Shown here: piece by piece, positions 7,258-16,096 of the stretch
Layout of the letters: each line of letters opens with the position of its first letter
Position numbering within the stretch: position 1 is the first letter of the stretch
NCBI RefSeq assembly: GCF_024300825.1
Contig: NZ_CP101323.1
Span: 2,046,001-2,110,000, forward strand
DNA length: 64,000 bases
Source of the DNA: Natronomonas gomsonensis
GTDB lineage: Archaea; Halobacteriota; Halobacteria; Halobacteriales; Haloarculaceae
Reading direction: 5' to 3'
Program-made: the position numbers and the translations under genes
The notes under the pieces: model-generated
The model's database searches: none
Seen by the model: only the letters and a program-made list of their open reading frames with translations
Told to the model about the DNA's origin: nothing

Positions 7258-8457
7258 ATGACCACACGGCTCCCAGAGTCGGAATTCGACGACCGCCTCG
7301 CCGCCGCCAGGGAACGAATCGACACCTCGGATGCCGACGCCGGCGTCTGGTTCGGCGCGACTTCGATAGAGTACCTCACCGGCTTCGCACACATCCAAAC
7401 CGAGCGGCCGGTCGTCCTCGCTGTGACCGACGACACGGTCGCGCTGACCGTCCCCCGACTGGAAGTCGAACGCGCCGAGGCCGTCGACTCAATCGACCGC
7501 GTCGACTCGTACTTCGACTACCCCGGTGGCAATCCCATCGAGACGGCCGCCGAAACCCTGTCGGACCTCGGCGTCGAGTCGGTCGCCGCCGACGGCGACG
7601 GCGCCCCCGGCGTGATGGGGTATCAGGGGCCGCCGCTGAGCGAGTTCCTCGCCGTCGACACCCAAGACTGGGTGAGTCGGATGCGGTGGGCGAAAAGCGA
7701 CGCCGAAATCGAGTTGATACGGGAGTCCGCGGAGTGGGCGAACCTCGGCCACCGGTATCTCGCCGACTACACCGAGGTCGGCGCCCACCCGGCGACGGTT
7801 AGCCAGCGGGCCTCGACGGACGCCTCCCGGGCGATGCTCGACACGTTGGGTGACCGCTACGTCGAGCGCGCCCGCGGGGACGGCCCCGTCCACGCCGGCT
7901 ACATCTCCGCCGAGGAGACCGCCCTCCCGCACGGCCACACGCCGAATCAGCGACTCCGCGAGGGCGACGTACTGATTACGGGTGCGACCGCCAACGTCGA
8001 CGGCTACTTTTCGGAACTCGAACGGACGATGTTCGTCGGCGAACCCAGCGACCGACAGCGCGAGTGCTTCGAAATCATGCTCGAAGCCCAGACGATAGCC
8101 ATCGAATCGCTCGGTCCCGGCGTCGCGCTGGAGTACGTCGATAGCGAGGTCATAGCCTACTTCGAAGAGCAGGGCGTCGCCGACCTCGCCCAACACCACG
8201 TCGGCCACAACATCGGCTTGGGCGCCCACGAACCACCCTACATCGACCGCGGGTGGAGCGACCACTGCGAGGCCGACCACACGAACTACGACGCCGCTGA
8301 CGCGTCGATGGAGCCGGGGCACGTCTACACCATCGAACCCGGCATCTACACCGACACGGATGGGTACCGCCACTCCGACACCATCGCCATCACCGACGAC
8401 GGTATCGAGTGGCTCACCTACTACCCGCGGGAACTGGAGGCGAACGTGATTCGCTGA
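7258..8457 (+). CDS. M24-fold (creatinase/aminopeptidase P) protein lacking acidic metal ligands
   Basis: This is a 399-residue protein with an N-terminal creatinase-type domain (about 1-140) and a C-terminal pita-bread M24 domain. Conserved M24 marks are LPHGH (His225), HHVGHNIG (His314/His317) and TIEPGIY (Glu360). The positions that are normally Asp, Asp and Glu metal ligands read Gly (in ITGATA), Glu253 (GYFSEL) and Ser373 (YRHSDT), so a classical dinuclear metal centre is unlikely. That makes it closer to creatinase or ectoine-hydrolase (DoeA/EutD)-like hydrolases than to proline peptidases. The ATG at 7258 is preceded by a TATA-like CCTTTTGA about 30 bases upstream, fitting a leaderless transcript. 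It shares its promoter region with the divergent deacylase. The substrate is not established. Confidence 0.85.
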   Translation: MTTRLPESEFDDRLAAARERIDTSDADAGVWFGATSIEYLTGFAHIQTERPVVLAVTDDTVALTVPRLEVERAEAVDSIDRVDSYFDYPGGNPIETAAETLSDLGVESVAADGDGAPGVMGYQGPPLSEFLAVDTQDWVSRMRWAKSDAEIELIRESAEWANLGHRYLADYTEVGAHPATVSQRASTDASRAMLDTLGDRYVERARGDGPVHAGYISAEETALPHGHTPNQRLREGDVLITGATANVDGYFSELERTMFVGEPSDRQRECFEIMLEAQTIAIESLGPGVALEYVDSEVIAYFEEQGVADLAQHHVGHNIGLGAHEPPYIDRGWSDHCEADHTNYDAADASMEPGHVYTIEPGIYTDTDGYRHSDTIAITDDGIEWLTYYPRELEANVIR

Positions 8458-8529
8458 CGGCCGGCCCCAAGGGCCGACCGGCCGCCGGAGCCAAACGCTT
8501 GAAGTCGTCTGCCACGATAGCACCGCCCA

Positions 8530-9150
8530 GTGACAGTCTCTTTCGACCTCTTCGGGACGCTCGTCGACTGCGATACGCCCGCCGACCCGGCGGCGGCCGT
8601 CGCCGCAGAACTCCGCGAACGCGGGGTTTCGGTTCCCGAGGACTTCGGCGACGCCTACCGAGAGGTCCACATCGACGCCCCGGACGGCGCGGAGGTACCG
8701 CTGCCGGCACACGTCTCGGCGGCGCTTGCCTCCCGCGGCGTCGACGCGCCGAACAACGCCGCCAGGCGGTCGGTCGTCGCCGCCTTCGACCCCGACGTGA
8801 CGCGACGCGATGGCGCTCGCGAGGCCATCGCCGCCGCACGCGAGTTCGGCCCGGTCGGCGTCTGCTCGAACTGCAGCGTCCCGGAGTTGGCCCGTCGGAC
8901 CCTGATTCGTGCAGACCTCCACGAGGCCTTCGACGCCGTCGTCACGAGCGTCGGTTGTGGCTGGCGAAAGCCCGACCCAAGAGCCTTCGAGACGGTCGCC
9001 CGCCGCCTCGACACCACCGCCGAGAGCCTCGTCCACGTCGGCGACGACCCCGCGACCGACGGCGGCATCGAGGAGTTGGGGGGCCGGTTCGTGGATGTCG
9101 ACGAGGTGCCGCTGTCGGCGCTCGAATCGCGGCTGGAGGCCCGACGGTGA
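8530..9150 (+). CDS. HAD-superfamily hydrolase, first gene of the cobamide operon
   Basis: This is a 206-residue haloacid-dehalogenase-fold hydrolase. Motif I is FDLFGTL with nucleophile Asp6; motif II Ser is in CSNCS; motif III Lys is in WRKPDP; motif IV is VGDDPATD. The residue two after the nucleophile is Phe, where most HAD phosphatases have the general-acid Asp and dehalogenases have an aromatic residue. The start is GTG at 8530. Its TGA stop overlaps the GTG start of cbiB (GTGA), so it is translationally coupled to the cobamide-salvage genes. This suggests a role in that pathway, for example removing a phosphate from an alpha-ribazole or cobalamin phosphate, although the altered motif I argues for caution. 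The fold is sure; the role is inferred from context. Confidence 0.82.
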   Translation: MTVSFDLFGTLVDCDTPADPAAAVAAELRERGVSVPEDFGDAYREVHIDAPDGAEVPLPAHVSAALASRGVDAPNNAARRSVVAAFDPDVTRRDGAREAIAAAREFGPVGVCSNCSVPELARRTLIRADLHEAFDAVVTSVGCGWRKPDPRAFETVARRLDTTAESLVHVGDDPATDGGIEELGGRFVDVDEVPLSALESRLEARR

Positions 9151-10064
9151 CGGACGTTCCGCTCGGCGTCACCGTCGCCGTCCTGCTGGCGGCGGGACTG
9201 GACTGGACGCTACGGGAACCGCCCGCGGAGTACCACCCGGTGACGCTGTTCGGCCGCCTCGTCGATTCGGTCGATGCCGAGTACGACGACCCGAAACGCG
9301 CTGGCGTCGCCGTCGCCGCTATCCTCCCGATTGCCGCCGCCGTGGCCGTCTATGCGGCCCTGTGGCTGACGACCCCGCTCCCGGGCATCGTGACGGCCGT
9401 CCTCGCCGGCCTCGTCCTGTGGTCGACGTCGAGTCTCCGACTACTCATTGATGCCGCCGAGCAAGCCATCGAAGAAAGCGAGACCGACCCCGAGGCCGCC
9501 CGCGAGGTACTGCCGGCGCTGGTCGGCCGCGACACCGCCGACCTTCCGCCGGAACTCCTCCGGAGTGCGGCCGTCGAAAGCGCCGCGGAGAACTTCTCCG
9601 ACGGCTTTCTCGCGCCGATTCTGGCGTTCGCGCTGTTCGCGCTCGTCTCGCTGCCCGCCGCCGCGGCCGCCGCGACGTACGTCAAATGCGTCAACACGCT
9701 GGATTCGATGCTCGGCTACCCCGGGCCGTTCGGTTGGGCCAGCGCCCGCCTCGACGACTTCGTGATGTTCGTTCCGGCCCGACTCAGTTCGGTCGTCCTC
9801 GGCCTGGCTGCAGGCGACCCCGACGCCCCGGGACGGGCACGCCGGTACGCCTCAGTTCCGGATTCGCCGAACGCCGGATGGCCGATGGGGTCGGTCGCCG
9901 CCGCCCACAACCTCCGACTGGAGAAGCCTGAGACGTACGTCCTCAACGAGGTGGCTGATTTCCCGACGGTCGCCGAGGGACACAACGCCATCCGGACGGT
10001 CACGAGAGCCGGCATCGCAACCTACGTTATCGTCGCACTCCTCGGGGTGATACTGTGGCTCTGA
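9147..10064 (+). CDS. cbiB: Adenosylcobinamide-phosphate synthase CbiB
   Basis: This is a 305-residue integral membrane enzyme of the CbiB/CobD family. It attaches the (phospho)aminopropanol linker to adenosylcobyric acid, giving adenosylcobinamide phosphate. Family marks visible are DWTLREPPAEYHPVTLFGRL near the N-terminus, the AVESAAENFSDG motif, YVKCVNTLDSMLGY, and several hydrophobic segments. The GTG at 9147 overlaps the stop of the HAD gene, and the 3' end overlaps cobS by 10 bases, indicating a tightly coupled operon. Its substrate comes from CbiP (encoded at 27.7 kb) or from CbiZ-mediated salvage (last gene of this operon). Length is normal. Confidence 0.93.
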   Translation: MTDVPLGVTVAVLLAAGLDWTLREPPAEYHPVTLFGRLVDSVDAEYDDPKRAGVAVAAILPIAAAVAVYAALWLTTPLPGIVTAVLAGLVLWSTSSLRLLIDAAEQAIEESETDPEAAREVLPALVGRDTADLPPELLRSAAVESAAENFSDGFLAPILAFALFALVSLPAAAAAATYVKCVNTLDSMLGYPGPFGWASARLDDFVMFVPARLSSVVLGLAAGDPDAPGRARRYASVPDSPNAGWPMGSVAAAHNLRLEKPETYVLNEVADFPTVAEGHNAIRTVTRAGIATYVIVALLGVILWL

Positions 10065-10813
10065 GCGACCTCCCCGGCGCCGTCCGCGGCGGCGTCGCCT
10101 TCTGCACCCGACTCCCGCTTTCGGGGTCCGAACGCGACTGGCTGCGGTTCCAGGAGATTCCCGCGGCCTTCCCCGCGGTCGGCTACCTCGTCGGCCTGTT
10201 GCTGGCGGTTCCCTTCGTCGTCCTCGATGGCCCGGCGGCCGCAGTCGCCGCCGTCTATCTGTTCGCCGTCTACCTCCTGACGGGCGTCAACCACCTCGAC
10301 GGCGTCGCCGACCTCGGCGATGCCGCCGCGATACACGACGGCGACGACCGCCGCGAGGCCCTGAAGGACACGACGACCGGCGTCGGCGCCGTCGGGGCGG
10401 TCGCCGTCGTCGTCGCCGCCCTCGCACTCGGCGCCGTGGCCGTGGCGGGCCTGCCGGTCGGCGCCGTCTTCCTTCTCGCGGTGGTCCTCGCCGCGGAGGT
10501 GAGCGCGAAACTCGCGATGGCGACCGTCGCCTGTCTCGGCACCGCCGCCCACGAGGGCCTGGGGTCGCAGTTCACGCGCAACGCCGACCCCGCGCTGTTG
10601 CTCGGGCCGGCCGTCGTTTCGGTCCCCGCCGCGCTTTTCGGCGGCGTCCCGACCGTCCTCGCCGTCGCGGCCGGGCCGCTCGTCGCCTACGGCCTCGTCC
10701 GCTGGGCCGAGGCCGCGCTGGGCGGCGTCAACGGCGACGTCTTCGGTGCCGCCAACGAACTCGCCCGGGTCGTCGCGCTCCTCGTGGGGGTGATAGCGTG
10801 GACGCAGTTCTGA
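10055..10813 (+). CDS. cobS: Adenosylcobinamide-GDP ribazoletransferase CobS (cobalamin synthase)
   Basis: This is a 252-residue polytopic membrane protein of the CobS family. It joins adenosylcobinamide-GDP to alpha-ribazole (phosphate) to complete the nucleotide loop of adenosylcobalamin. Diagnostic residues are FCTRLP near the N-terminus, the acidic LTGVNHLDGVADLGDA motif and DTTTGVGA, followed by Ala/Val-rich membrane segments. The GTG at 10055 overlaps the end of cbiB, and the 3' end overlaps cobY by 16 bases. The product probably acts in the membrane together with CbiB. No deviation from the family is visible. Confidence 0.93.
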   Translation: MALSDLPGAVRGGVAFCTRLPLSGSERDWLRFQEIPAAFPAVGYLVGLLLAVPFVVLDGPAAAVAAVYLFAVYLLTGVNHLDGVADLGDAAAIHDGDDRREALKDTTTGVGAVGAVAVVVAALALGAVAVAGLPVGAVFLLAVVLAAEVSAKLAMATVACLGTAAHEGLGSQFTRNADPALLLGPAVVSVPAALFGGVPTVLAVAAGPLVAYGLVRWAEAALGGVNGDVFGAANELARVVALLVGVIAWTQF

Positions 10814-11358
10814 TGTGTGGCGGCCGCGGAACCCGCCTCGACCGCGGCGAGAAACCGCTGTTCGAAATCGCCGGCGAACCGATGGTCGACCGCGTTCTCG
10901 GAGCCCTCACGGAGAGCCGAATCGACACCGTCCATGCCGTCACCTCCCCGCACGTCCCCGAGACGACCGCCCACCTCGGGGGACGTGTCCCACTGATAGA
11001 GGCCCCCGGCGACGGGTACGTCGAGGACCTCGGCACGGCGCTGGAGACCGTCGAAGAGCCCGTTCTCACGGTCGTTTCCGACCTCCCGCTTCTGGCCGGC
11101 GAGGTCGTCGACCGAACCCTCGACGCCCACGACTCCGGGTCGCTGACGGTGTGTGTCCCAACCGCGCTGAAGGAGGCCCTCGGCGTCAGTTCGGACACCA
11201 CACGCGCCCACGGCGGTCGCGAGTGCTCCCCGACCGGACTGAACGTCGTCGGTGGCGACGCGGAGACCATCCGCGTCAGCTACGACGCCCGACTTGCGGT
11301 CAACGTCAACCGCCCCGGCGATGCCGAACTCGCGGAGGTGCTCGCAGATGGACCCTGA
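10798..11358 (+). CDS. cobY: GTP:adenosylcobinamide-phosphate guanylyltransferase CobY
   Basis: This is a 186-residue nucleotidyltransferase with the N-terminal signature MCGGRGTRL and a lysine in GEKPLFEI. It activates adenosylcobinamide phosphate with GTP to give adenosylcobinamide-GDP. It is the archaeal, non-orthologous replacement for the bacterial CobU kinase/guanylyltransferase, so it marks archaeal-type cobamide salvage. Other visible marks are the acidic metal-binding VVSDLPLL and the C-terminal LAVNVNRPGD. It starts at GTG 10798 inside the end of cobS and overlaps the aminotransferase gene by 11 bases. Confidence 0.93.
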   Translation: MDAVLMCGGRGTRLDRGEKPLFEIAGEPMVDRVLGALTESRIDTVHAVTSPHVPETTAHLGGRVPLIEAPGDGYVEDLGTALETVEEPVLTVVSDLPLLAGEVVDRTLDAHDSGSLTVCVPTALKEALGVSSDTTRAHGGRECSPTGLNVVGGDAETIRVSYDARLAVNVNRPGDAELAEVLADGP

Positions 11359-12361
11359 CAGCGTCGCCGACGCCGAACGGGTACCCCACGGCTCCAGCGA
11401 CGACCCCGACGTGCTCGATTTGAGCGCGAATATCAACCCCCGCGTCCCCGACGGGACAGGCGCAGTCTACGACGACGCCTTCGAGGCGGCCCGCTCGTAT
11501 CCGAACGACGACTACCCGGAGTTCCGGGCGGCCGCCGCCGACTACGTCGGCTGTTCGCCCGAATCGGTCGTCCCGACAGCTGGCGGTCTGGCGGCCATCC
11601 GTCTCGCAATCGGCGTCACCGTCTCTCCCGGGGAGGACGTACTCGTTCCGTACCCTTCCTTCGGCGAGTACGCCCGCGAGGTCGAGTTGGCCGGCGGCCA
11701 CCCGCAGTTCGTCGCCCACGACGAACTGCTCGACCGTGACCCCTCGGAGTACGCGATGGCAGTCGTCTGTACGCCGAACAACCCCACGGGCGACCTCTAC
11801 GGGGAGGACGCCCTTGCCGAGTTCGCCGACCGCTGTGCGGCGGCCGGCACCGTCCTGTTGGCCGACGAGGCGTTTCTCGGCTTCACCGACCGCGACTCAC
11901 TGGCCGGTCGCGAGCGATGTATCGTCGCTCGCTCGCTCACCAAACTGTTCGGCTTGCCCGGCCTCCGCGCCGGGTTTGCCGTCGCCGGCGGCGAACTGCG
12001 CGACCGACTCGAAACCGCCCGGCCGGCGTGGTCGCTGGGCGGTCCCGCCGCCGCCGTCGGTGCCCACGCCATGCGCGATACGGCGTTCGTCGTCGAGACC
12101 CGTCGTCGCGTCAAGCGCGAGCGCGCGTACCTCCGGGCGGAACTGACCGACCGCGGCTTCGACGTTCGGCACTCCGACGCGCCGTTCGTCCTCGTCGAGG
12201 TCGGCGAGGACCCCACCGACCTGCTGGACGCCTGCCGGGACCGCGGCGTCGTCCTCCGCGATGCGACGACGTTCCGGGGCCTCGCCTCTCACGTCCGCAT
12301 CGCCGTTCGGGACCGAGAAGCGACCGACCGCCTGCTTTCGGTCCTCGACGAGGTGCGATAG
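11348..12361 (+). CDS. cobD: PLP-dependent L-threonine-phosphate decarboxylase-like protein (CobD/HisC family)
   Basis: This is a 337-residue fold-type I PLP enzyme of the histidinol-phosphate aminotransferase family. The cofactor lysine is in SLTKLFGLPGLRAG and the substrate-binding region is CTPNNPTGD. The N-terminal LDLSANINP is typical of CobD, which decarboxylates threonine phosphate to the (R)-1-amino-2-propanol phosphate used by CbiB. Its place between cobY and cbiZ supports that assignment over histidine synthesis. The ATG at 11348 overlaps the end of cobY; a longer in-frame extension into cobY was rejected. The stop is one base before the cbiZ start. A HisC activity cannot be excluded from sequence alone. 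Confidence 0.87.
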   Translation: MDPDSVADAERVPHGSSDDPDVLDLSANINPRVPDGTGAVYDDAFEAARSYPNDDYPEFRAAAADYVGCSPESVVPTAGGLAAIRLAIGVTVSPGEDVLVPYPSFGEYAREVELAGGHPQFVAHDELLDRDPSEYAMAVVCTPNNPTGDLYGEDALAEFADRCAAAGTVLLADEAFLGFTDRDSLAGRERCIVARSLTKLFGLPGLRAGFAVAGGELRDRLETARPAWSLGGPAAAVGAHAMRDTAFVVETRRRVKRERAYLRAELTDRGFDVRHSDAPFVLVEVGEDPTDLLDACRDRGVVLRDATTFRGLASHVRIAVRDREATDRLLSVLDEVR

Positions 12362-12362
12362 C

Positions 12363-13061
12363 GTGTTCGAGTTCGACCGCACCGACGACCGACTCACGCT
12401 CCGTCGGCCGGAAACCCGCTGGCTCTCGAACGGTTTCGACGGCGGATATCACGACGCCGACGCCGCCCACAACCTCACCGTCAAGGAGGGGTTCGACCGC
12501 ACCGACCTCGCGGCCTACGCCGCCGAACGCCTCGGCGGCCGACCCGACGGCCCCACGCTTCTGACCGGCGTCTCACAGCGCCACGCCCGCGGCGCCCGCC
12601 GCGGCCCCGTCGAAGCCGTCGTCACCGCCGGCGTCTCCAATCCCGCCGAACTGCCGATGGGGCCGGAGGGCGTTCGACCCGAAACAGGGGGCGACTCCGC
12701 AGGGGCGTGGCGTCCCGGCACCGTCAACGTCTTCGTCGGGACGACGCGAGCGCTCGACGACGGCGCCCTCGCTGGGTTGCTCGCCACCGCCGTCGAGGCG
12801 AAGGCCGCGACGCTCCTGGATGCCGTCGACGTTCCGGGGACCACGAGCGACGCCGTCGTCGTCGGGGCGGACCCGACGGGCGACTCCTCGGAGTTCGCCG
12901 GCAGCGCGACCGAGGTCGGGGCGGCCGCCCGTGCCTGCGTCCGCGAGGCCGTCCGCGCGAGCCTCGAGTCCCGATACGACGACGAGGACCCACCCACCGC
13001 CGCGGAAGCCCGCTACGGCGTCTCGACAGAGGAGCGGGCGAACGTGTTCGACCTCGGTTGA
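12363..13061 (+). CDS. cbiZ: Adenosylcobinamide amidohydrolase CbiZ
   Basis: This is a 232-residue protein of the CbiZ family. CbiZ cleaves the aminopropanol side chain from scavenged adenosylcobinamide or pseudo-cobalamin to give adenosylcobyric acid, which re-enters the pathway at CbiB. Recognisable segments are RWLSNGFDGGY near the N-terminus, a stretch of Ala/Val/Thr with AVVTAGVSNPAE, and GTVNVFVGT. The start is GTG at 12363, one base after cobD. It ends the salvage operon; 68 bases separate it from the next gene. With CbiB, CobS and CobY it gives a complete route from imported incomplete corrinoids to finished cofactor, apart from base activation (CobT), which is not in the window. Confidence 0.92.
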   Translation: MFEFDRTDDRLTLRRPETRWLSNGFDGGYHDADAAHNLTVKEGFDRTDLAAYAAERLGGRPDGPTLLTGVSQRHARGARRGPVEAVVTAGVSNPAELPMGPEGVRPETGGDSAGAWRPGTVNVFVGTTRALDDGALAGLLATAVEAKAATLLDAVDVPGTTSDAVVVGADPTGDSSEFAGSATEVGAAARACVREAVRASLESRYDDEDPPTAAEARYGVSTEERANVFDLG

Positions 13062-13129
13062 GTCGTCAGCGGACGCCGGGGGCTCGGGTCACCGACGCCG
13101 TCTTGGCCAACGAACCACAATCCCGGCCA

Positions 13130-13813
13130 ATGCGCGAAATCGTCTTCACCGTGGTCCACGAACCCGGGATGAACCCGGTCGCGGACCTGCTCGCCGAGTA
13201 CCCGAGCGCCCGCATTCGCTCGCTGGCGTGTCACGTCACCGAATCGGCGCTGTGGCGGGTCGACCGCGCCACCGGCCCCGGAGCGGCGCTGGACGAACTC
13301 GAAGACCTCGCCGGGGCGCGGTACTTCACCGACTGTCTCGTTCGCGACGGCTGTGACGGCGACTGGGAGACCACGGTTCTGGACCGCTCGGAGAGTTCGC
13401 TCGTGTTGTACTCCTACTGGGAGCGGACGGCGAGTTGTGACTCCGTGCCCCATCTTGCCCGCGAGCACTTCGGCGACGGCATCGTCTTGGACGAAACGTG
13501 GCGCGGCCGCCGCCAGCGCTGGCGGGCGCTGGCACCCGACGGCCCCGTCGGCGCCTTCGTCGAGGACGTTCGAGCGGTCGCCGACGCCGACATCGAGTTC
13601 GAACGCGTCTCCGACCCCGACCCGGACCCCGACGCCGAGTTGTCCCCGAAGCAGGCCGACGCGCTGGCCGCCGCCGTCGAGGCCGGCTACTACGAGACAC
13701 CGAGAGAGATAGAGACCTACGAACTCGCCGAGCAGTTGGGGATTCCGGGGTCGACGCTGTCGTATCGCCTCCGTCGGGCGGAGGCGTGGCTGGCAAAGCG
13801 GTACGTCGAGTAG
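13130..13813 (+). CDS. Bat/HTH_10-type transcriptional regulator
   Basis: This is a 227-residue DNA-binding protein of the haloarchaeal bacterio-opsin-activator class. The C-terminal 55 residues form the HTH_10 domain (LSPKQADALAAAVEAGYYE to GSTLSYRLRRAEAWL). The N-terminal two thirds are an uncharacterised small-molecule or input domain with five cysteines. A short acidic repeat (DPDPDPDAE) links the two. The ATG at 13130 was chosen over an upstream open frame running through cbiZ. It sits between the cobamide operon and a heavy-metal ATPase gene, with a perfect inverted repeat just after its stop codon, so it may control one or the other. Target unknown. Confidence 0.85.
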   Translation: MREIVFTVVHEPGMNPVADLLAEYPSARIRSLACHVTESALWRVDRATGPGAALDELEDLAGARYFTDCLVRDGCDGDWETTVLDRSESSLVLYSYWERTASCDSVPHLAREHFGDGIVLDETWRGRRQRWRALAPDGPVGAFVEDVRAVADADIEFERVSDPDPDPDAELSPKQADALAAAVEAGYYETPREIETYELAEQLGIPGSTLSYRLRRAEAWLAKRYVE

Positions 13814-13873: not shown

Positions 13874-16096
13874 ATGAGTACGGAACGCGTCGAGCTGTCG
13901 GCCCCCGAGATGGACTGTTCGTCCTGTGCCGGGAAGGTGCACTCGGCGATAGAGGGTATCGACGGCGTCGTCAACGTAGAGACCCGCCCGACCGCCGGCG
14001 TGGTCGTCGTCGAGTACGACGGCGACGCCGTCGACGTCGGGGCGCTCGTCTCGAGCATCGAAGCAGCTGGCTACGAAGTGACCGACACCGAGGGACGACT
14101 GACCGAAGGCACCGCCGTCTGGCGGAGCGACCGCGCCTACGCGACTTACGCCGGCGCCGTGGCGCTCCTCGTCGGCGCAATCGTCAGCGTCGGCCCGGTT
14201 CCGGACCCGCTCGTCGTCGACGTCCTCCGGGAGACGACGCTGTCGGACGTGCTGTACGTCCTCGCCGCGGCCGTCGCCGGGGTGCCGGTCGTCCGGGCGG
14301 GCTATCGCTCCGCGAAACTCAGGGAACTCGACATCGACCTGCTGATGGGCGTCGCCATCCTCGCGGCGCTCGGCGTCGGCTACTACGTCGAGGCGGCGAC
14401 GCTGGCGGTGCTTTTCAGCCTCGCCGAACTGCTGGAGGCCCACGCGATGGACCGCACGCGGGAGTCGATGCGAGAGTTGCTGGCGCTGTCACCCGACACG
14501 GCGACGGTGAAACGCGGCGACAGCGAGGAGACGATTCCGGCCGCCAACGTCGAGGTAGGCGACGTAGTCGTCGTCCGCCCCGGCGAGCGCGTCCCGGTCG
14601 ACGGCGAAGTCGTTTCCGGGGAATCGGCCGTCGACGAGTCACCAATCACTGGCGAGTCCGTCCCCGTCGACAAGGGCGAGGGCGACGAGGTGTACGCCGG
14701 GTCGGTCGTCGAGGGGGGGTACCTCGAAGTGCTTGCGACCGCCGCCGGCGACGAGACGACGCTCGCACGCGTCATCGACCTCGTCGAGGAGGCCGAATCC
14801 AGACAGACCGACGCCGAGCGGTTCGTCGACCGCTTCTCGGGGTACTACACACCGGTCATCGTCGCCGGTGCGCTGGCGACCGTGTTCATCCCGCCGCTGT
14901 TCTTCGCCGGCGACTGGGGAACGTGGTTCGTCCGCGGACTGACGCTGCTGGTCGTTGCCTGCCCCTGTGCGTTCGTCATCTCGACGCCGGTGACCGTCGT
15001 CTCGGGGCTGACGAGCGCCGCCCGCAACGGCGTCCTCGTGAAGGGCGGCGACCACCTCGAACGGATGGGCGAGGTCGACACGGTCGCCTTCGACAAGACG
15101 GGAACGCTGACGACCGGCGAACTCTCGGTGACCGACGTGGTGCCGGCGGCCGACAGGGACGCCGACGAGGTGCTCCGAATCGCCGCCGCCCTCGAACGGT
15201 ACAGCGAACACCCCATCGGGAAGGCCATCGTCGACCGCGCAGAGGACGACGGCGTCGAAGTGCCGGAGGCCACGGGCTTCGAGAACCTCACCGGCCGCGG
15301 GGTCCGCGGCGACATCGAAACCACCTACTACGTCGGCAAGCCCGCGCTGTTCGAGGAGTTGGGCCACGACCTCGGCCACGCCCACGTCCGAACCGACGGC
15401 GGCGCCTCGGTCGCCGAACGGGCCGACCCCGACTGCGACCGGCCGGGCTGTGTCGACCTCCGTGGGGACACCATCGCCGACCTCCAGTCCGACGGTAAGA
15501 CGGTCGTCATCGTCGGAACCGACGAGGAACTACTCGGCGTCGTCGCCGTCGCGGACACGATTCGACCGGAAGCCGAGGGCGTCGTCGCGACCCTGGAGAC
15601 CGCCGGCGTCCGGACGGTCATGCTCACCGGCGACAACGAGCGGACCGCCCGCGCCGTCGGCGAATCGGTCGGTATCGACGAGGTCCACGCCGACCTGCTG
15701 CCGGAGGAGAAACTCGACCGCATCGAGCGGTTGACCGAGACGGACACCGTCGCGATGGTCGGCGACGGCGTCAACGACGCCCCCGCCCTCGCTCGCGCCG
15801 ACGTGGGCATCGCGATGGGCGCCGCCGGCACCGACACCGCCCTCGAAACCGCCGACATCGCGCTGATGGCCGACGACCTCGACGGCGTCCCCTACTGTCT
15901 CCGATTGGCCCGGCAGGCCAACGGCGTCATCAAGCAGAACATCCTCGCCAGCCTCGCGGTGAAAGCCGTCCTCGCCGCCGGCGCACCGCTCGGCTACGTC
16001 ACCGTCATCGTCGCCGTCGTCGTCGGCGACATGGGGATGAGCCTCGCGGTGACGGGCAACGCCCTCCGACTCGGCCGCGTCGAACCGGAGGAGTGA
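13874..16096 (+). CDS. Heavy-metal P1B-type ATPase, Zn/Cd-exporter class
   Basis: This is a 740-residue cation pump. An N-terminal HMA domain carries MDCSSC (Cys15, Cys18). The membrane metal motif is C363-P-C365, the phosphorylated residue is Asp407 in DKTGTLT, and TGES, MLTGDN and GDGVNDAP are all present. The late membrane segments read NILASLAVK and GDMGMSLAVTGNALRL; a Lys and a D-x-G at these sites mark the Zn2+/Cd2+/Pb2+ exporters (P1B-2) rather than Cu+ pumps. The nucleotide-binding domain has an inserted acidic stretch with Cys521 and Cys526 (PDCDRPGC). It is flanked by a Bat-type regulator upstream and a NikR-family gene downstream. The likely role is zinc or cadmium efflux. Confidence 0.92.
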   Translation: MSTERVELSAPEMDCSSCAGKVHSAIEGIDGVVNVETRPTAGVVVVEYDGDAVDVGALVSSIEAAGYEVTDTEGRLTEGTAVWRSDRAYATYAGAVALLVGAIVSVGPVPDPLVVDVLRETTLSDVLYVLAAAVAGVPVVRAGYRSAKLRELDIDLLMGVAILAALGVGYYVEAATLAVLFSLAELLEAHAMDRTRESMRELLALSPDTATVKRGDSEETIPAANVEVGDVVVVRPGERVPVDGEVVSGESAVDESPITGESVPVDKGEGDEVYAGSVVEGGYLEVLATAAGDETTLARVIDLVEEAESRQTDAERFVDRFSGYYTPVIVAGALATVFIPPLFFAGDWGTWFVRGLTLLVVACPCAFVISTPVTVVSGLTSAARNGVLVKGGDHLERMGEVDTVAFDKTGTLTTGELSVTDVVPAADRDADEVLRIAAALERYSEHPIGKAIVDRAEDDGVEVPEATGFENLTGRGVRGDIETTYYVGKPALFEELGHDLGHAHVRTDGGASVAERADPDCDRPGCVDLRGDTIADLQSDGKTVVIVGTDEELLGVVAVADTIRPEAEGVVATLETAGVRTVMLTGDNERTARAVGESVGIDEVHADLLPEEKLDRIERLTETDTVAMVGDGVNDAPALARADVGIAMGAAGTDTALETADIALMADDLDGVPYCLRLARQANGVIKQNILASLAVKAVLAAGAPLGYVTVIVAVVVGDMGMSLAVTGNALRLGRVEPEE

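Follow-up and report, generated by a model that had tools for sequence, protein, structure and literature searches.

The HAD-fold gene at the head of the cobamide operon in the Natronomonas window (the whole 64,000-nucleotide stretch of DNA analysed here) probably encodes a haloarchaea-specific, Mg-dependent C1-cap phosphatase of cobamide nucleotide-loop assembly, standing in for CobC and CobZ. Its most likely reaction would be removal of the 5'-phosphate from adenosylcobamide-5'-phosphate, the product of CobS, and/or from alpha-ribazole-5'-phosphate. The HAD reading frame begins with GTG, encodes 206 residues and leads a run of cobamide genes on the same strand:

8495–8510, + strand: promoter-like element AACGCTTGAAGTCG, picked out by eye about 20–35 nt upstream of the HAD start (putative function)
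8530–9150, + strand: HAD hydrolase, with nucleophile D6, F8 replacing the second Asp, S113, K147 and D172/D177
9147–10064, + strand: cbiB, adenosylcobinamide-phosphate synthase (Pfam/NCBIfam)
10055–10813, + strand: cobS, cobamide-phosphate synthase, overlapping cbiB by 10 nt (Pfam/NCBIfam)
10798–11358, + strand: cobY, adenosylcobinamide-phosphate guanylyltransferase type, overlapping cobS by 16 nt (Pfam/NCBIfam)
11348–12361, + strand: cobD, threonine-phosphate decarboxylase (TIGR01140 above cut-off; probable ATG start at 11348, from the ORF translation)
12363–13061, + strand: cbiZ, adenosylcobinamide amidohydrolase (Pfam/NCBIfam; probable GTG start at 12363, from the ORF translation)

The HAD reading frame ends in TGA (9148–9150) and overlaps cbiB, whose GTG start lies at 9147, by four nucleotides (GTGA). 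This overlap and the gene order HAD, CbiB, CobS, CobY-type NTP transferase, CobD, CbiZ, both described in an earlier note on this DNA, are confirmed by the ORF reading and the Pfam and NCBIfam assignments, as is the absence of CobC and CobZ from the operon. The same note spoke of a cobamide-salvage operon; cobamide is correct, and salvage is too narrow since de novo assembly of the nucleotide loop draws on cbiB, cobS, cobY and cobD as well. Because a promoter-like stretch (GATTCAAGT/CTTGAAGTC) is found by eye in the window, in L008 and in eight Natronomonas relatives, each time about equally far from the HAD start, the HAD gene is probably the start of the transcript. Upstream lies an M24 peptidase-like gene (7258–8457), and the M24-HAD neighbourhood persists in several genomes that lack cbiB to cbiZ (L059, L100, L101, L105), which suggests that the older order was M24-HAD-cbiB. 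At the other end, an HTH_10 regulator (13058–13813; PF24281 HVO_2928_N and PF04967) seems to share 4 nt with the end of cbiZ and is possibly the last gene of the operon or its regulator; such a regulator also follows cbiZ in the N. gomsonensis relative. A heavy-metal P1B-type ATPase (13874–16096) lies directly downstream of the operon and regulator.

A phosphatase role for haloarchaeal proteins of this kind has been predicted before. Haloferax volcanii HVO_0586 is listed as "prediction, EC 3.1.3.73" in Table 3 of Pfeiffer and Dyall-Smith 2021 (PMC8305020), and Rodionov et al. 2003, as quoted there, predicted the Halobacterium NRC-1 protein HSL01294/VNG_1577C to be an alpha-ribazole/cobamide phosphatase. 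Like the window HAD, these genes lie directly upstream of cbiB, and we liken them by synteny; they differ in belonging to other species and in being predictions only. In Halobacterium sp. KA-4 (L031) the order is cbiP-HAD-cbiB (the cbiP-like gene was identified from its translation), matching the NRC-1 locus-tag order VNG_1576-1577-1578, and the HAD is 60% identical to the window protein. By gene position, directly upstream of cbiB in a cob cluster, the window HAD thus belongs with the predicted haloarchaeal phosphatase. The proposal of the earlier note, that this gene is a candidate for the missing phosphatase, was therefore an independent rediscovery, as the 2003 prediction was already listed for the syntenic HVO_0586/VNG_1577C; it gains from the linkage, co-occurrence, CobZ absence and active-site decay described below, although the idea was already published and the role is a predicted one. 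We found no experimental test of the predicted haloarchaeal HAD phosphatase in the open-access literature searched.

The linkage of HAD to cbiB is general. In nearly all relatives read, the HAD heads the operon beside cbiB, from the closest relative, N. gomsonensis (HAD 96% identical), to the basal family f5 (G021/L112), which retains HAD-cbiB-cobS-cobY-cobD with a HAD of 39% identity, so the linkage is old. At all 74 analysed loci where HAD is linked to cbiB, the two genes are neighbours in one orientation, and the HAD stop lies a median of 37.5 nt, and at most 125 nt, from the first aligned cbiB codon. An in-frame cbiB start compatible with the 4-nt overlap is present at 31 of these loci; the exact overlap is therefore common but not universal. 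The check proposed in the earlier note, conservation beside cbiB in haloarchaea without cobZ, thus returns strong linkage in other genomes. Among 392 Halobacteria genomes, HAD is present in 348 (E≤1e-12; a few matches, G258, G136 and G042, are weak and may be paralogs or fragments) and cbiB in 347. Comparing the two presence lists by hand gives 329 genomes with both genes and 26 with neither; cbiB occurs alone in 18 and HAD alone in 19 (Fisher p=3e-17, uncorrected for phylogeny). When 345 genomes sampled from the phylum are searched with the HAD profile, every hit at E≤1e-14 falls within the window's own order, with no relative outside Halobacteria at that threshold; among the genomes sampled, the family is confined to haloarchaea. 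Two departures from the usual arrangement were seen: G306, in which HAD lies far from its own cob operon, and G121 (L057), a reduced cluster in which HAD is directly followed by cobD, with cbiB, cobS and cobY gone.

The protein is a member of the HAD superfamily (PF00702, 54.7 bits against a cut-off of 26.4) and has no match to the CobC histidine phosphatase domain (PF00300, TIGR03162) or to the CobZ/PgpA domain PF04608. Its AlphaFold model (pLDDT 95.4) consists of a HAD core and a small C1-type cap. Motifs II–IV are present (SN with S113, K147 and GDDPATD), while motif I, FDLFGT, has Phe at the position of the canonical second Asp. D6, F8, T10, H61, S113, K147, D172 and D177 are invariant in 74/74 cbiB-linked HADs, most of them from genomes with both genes among the listed best matches, a sample that leans to conserved copies. 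The loss of the motif I acid, remarked on in the earlier note, is therefore real, and the protein is not a canonical DxD phosphatase. Non-canonical motif I is not unique to the operon HAD, since other HADs of the same genome have D-x-D, D-x-G or D-x-Y. The cap carries a conserved motif, E45-x-H47-x-D49 ... E55-x-P-L-P-x-H61, in which H47 (71/74) and E55 (72/74) are near-invariant.

With the C1-cap phosphatases phosphoglycolate phosphatase, NANP and YihX, the window HAD shares the fold, the nucleophile Asp, the Ser, the Lys and a Mg-type motif IV; YihX also lacks the second Asp. No orthology to these enzymes was detected, and the cap motif with H61 is the family's own. Foldseek places them among its PDB neighbours together with dehalogenases, and many close neighbours are dehalogenases or proteins of unknown activity. 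A dehalogenase-type or other non-phosphatase hydrolase might thus be proposed, as the D-x-F motif I resembles that of L-2-haloacid dehalogenases, several of which are among the fold neighbours, and fluoroacetate dehalogenase 4A, the best PDB sequence match (E=3.8e-8), likewise lacks the second Asp. Dehalogenases lack Mg-binding acids in motif IV and work metal-free, whereas D172 and D177 are kept in 74/74 orthologs; the score against TIGR01428 (HAD type II), 28.2 bits, is far under the cut-off of 125.4, and cobamide assembly is not known to be connected with dehalogenation. We consider this reading scarcely credible, and reject a dehalogenase on motif IV and the TIGR01428 score. The GDD...D pattern, as read from sequence, is of the Mg-binding type and argues for a phosphatase. 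Of the alternatives raised in the earlier note, an unusual mechanism or a different role, we favour a phosphatase with another acid/base; strict retention of the nucleophile and of a Mg-type motif IV makes a different role the less likely of the two.

In such a phosphatase, attack of D6 on the phosphate would give an aspartyl-phosphate, the phosphate group being held by T10, S113 and K147, and Mg2+ would be bound by D172/D177 together with the residue 8 backbone. In HAD phosphatases the residue at +2 in motif I gives its backbone carbonyl to Mg, so F8 would keep metal binding and remove the usual acid/base. With the usual Asp general acid gone, protonation of the leaving group and activation of water would have to come from elsewhere, for example from the invariant cap residue H61, from H47, or from substrate or solvent. 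Going by conservation, H61 is the best candidate for the replacement.

The fate of the active site where the pathway has been lost bears on function. Among 13 full-length HADs from genomes in which cbiB was not found and intact cobS is absent (in G142 and G249 the sole cobS match is weak or partial), three have lost the nucleophile, D6 being replaced by A, G and A in G109, G259 and G274, respectively, along with other catalytic motif losses. The difference from 0/74 beside cbiB has a Fisher p of 0.0027, falling to 7e-5 once the fragments G042 and G258 are included; both values are indicative, as the test was framed after erosion had been noticed and ignores shared ancestry. An enzyme working in the pathway would be expected to behave in this way, losing its nucleophile only in genomes without the pathway and never beside cbiB. 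Two further copies, G156 and G159, were considered as pseudogenes and rejected as such, their reported in-frame stops being normal C-terminal stops. A catalytically complete HAD is kept in about 10 genomes without cbiB and intact cobS, and three of these, from g35, have NG86 dN/dS of 0.27–0.31 (rough values), within the 0.10–0.46 of cbiB-positive pairs, so that the HAD may serve some other purpose or be a slowly fading remnant. These intact copies, together with the distant HAD of G306, are what would be expected if the protein worked outside cobamide metabolism and were only a passenger in the operon; the strength of its co-occurrence with cbiB and the confinement of nucleophile loss to genomes without cbiB make this very unlikely.

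Known phosphatases for the step are of other kinds. CobZ (Methanosarcina mazei MM2058) and CbiS (Methanopyrus) are archaeal alpha-ribazole-phosphate phosphatases and non-orthologous replacements of CobC, according to references given in PMC9561151 and PMC3223730. They share with the HAD an archaeal origin and the proposed reaction; CobZ is PgpA-like (PF04608) rather than HAD and practically absent from Halobacteria, and the match of the window CbiZ to CbiS is limited to the amidohydrolase part. Salmonella CobC acts at the step proposed for the HAD, with an unrelated fold and a His nucleophile. A genome-wide search found no PgpA/CobZ (PF04608), so a CobZ elsewhere in this genome is rejected; across Halobacteria, PF04608 occurs in 2/392 genomes, and the same search is positive in Methanosarcina and Methanocaldococcus.

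The single histidine phosphatase found genome-wide (L073, G000:C1:2436391-2436969) lies outside the cob operon, beside an ORF whose translation resembles 6-phosphogluconate dehydrogenase. Its best NCBIfam match is the alpha-ribazole phosphatase CobC (TIGR03162), at 114.6 bits, below the curated cut-off of 162.9, while PMC8305020 reports no CobC homolog in haloarchaea. This protein could be the real phosphatase, leaving the HAD to do something else, and its orthologs do occur in six g37 genomes without HAD; however, the score is sub-threshold, the gene is not beside cob genes, and it is missing in 9/16 sampled genomes with HAD and cbiB as well as from HAD-less g5, g17, G002 and G320. Being patchy and below cut-off, it is rejected as a general solution, and we think it improbable that it displaces the HAD here. 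The earlier note had named two findings that would weigh against its proposal, a CobZ or CobC elsewhere and a lack of linkage to cob genes in other genomes: CobZ is absent from this genome and a CobC-like histidine phosphatase is present outside the operon, and linkage is strong, yet 18 cbiB-positive genomes (g5, g17, g37, G002, G383, G320, G020) have no HAD ortholog.

In these HAD-less genomes no replacement phosphatase was recognised by eye near cbiB (15 loci, L045–L056 and L062–L064), the ORFs upstream of cbiB looking BtuF-, CbiA/CobB- and CobT-like; in g5 a CobT-like gene lies between cobY and cobD. A relocated, diverged HAD was rejected on the readable best hits (all except L081, L082, L090 and L094), which have a D-x-D motif I or lack the family cap motif and are ordinary paralogs. 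Another phosphatase must serve the HAD-less cbiB-positive genomes (genera g5, g17, g37 and others); together with the intact cbiB-minus copies and the CobC-like protein, these genomes argue against a sole, essential role for the HAD. They would also suit a dispensable clean-up enzyme, that is, a cobamide-pathway phosphatase acting outside the obligatory step on another compound, such as aminopropanol-phosphate, threonine-phosphate or adenosylcobinamide-phosphate, and the coupling of HAD with cbiB instead of cobS, and its retention before cobD in G121 without cbiB-cobS-cobY, point the same way. Such a role would, however, leave the obligatory step without an assigned enzyme in almost all haloarchaea, where CobZ is absent and the CobC-like protein patchy, and presence in 329/347 cbiB-positive genomes is more than one would expect of a dispensable enzyme; we hold it to be rather unlikely and prefer a phosphatase of nucleotide-loop assembly itself.

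The 2003 prediction gains new support from an active site that is preserved in genomes retaining the pathway and in some cases eroded in those without it. The haloarchaeal cobamide phosphatase step is an open point of the pathway in PMC8305020, filled by prediction only, and the pattern of conservation and decay puts the HAD candidate on firmer ground, narrowed to one gene and two substrates. It also poses the mechanistic question of how a HAD phosphatase can function when Phe takes the place of the acid/base Asp. There is, in our estimate, an even chance that the enzyme used by haloarchaea is, next to CobC and CobZ, a third nucleotide-loop phosphatase of independent origin: a HAD restricted to their class that works without the canonical general acid of motif I and may rely on H61 or on substrate assistance.
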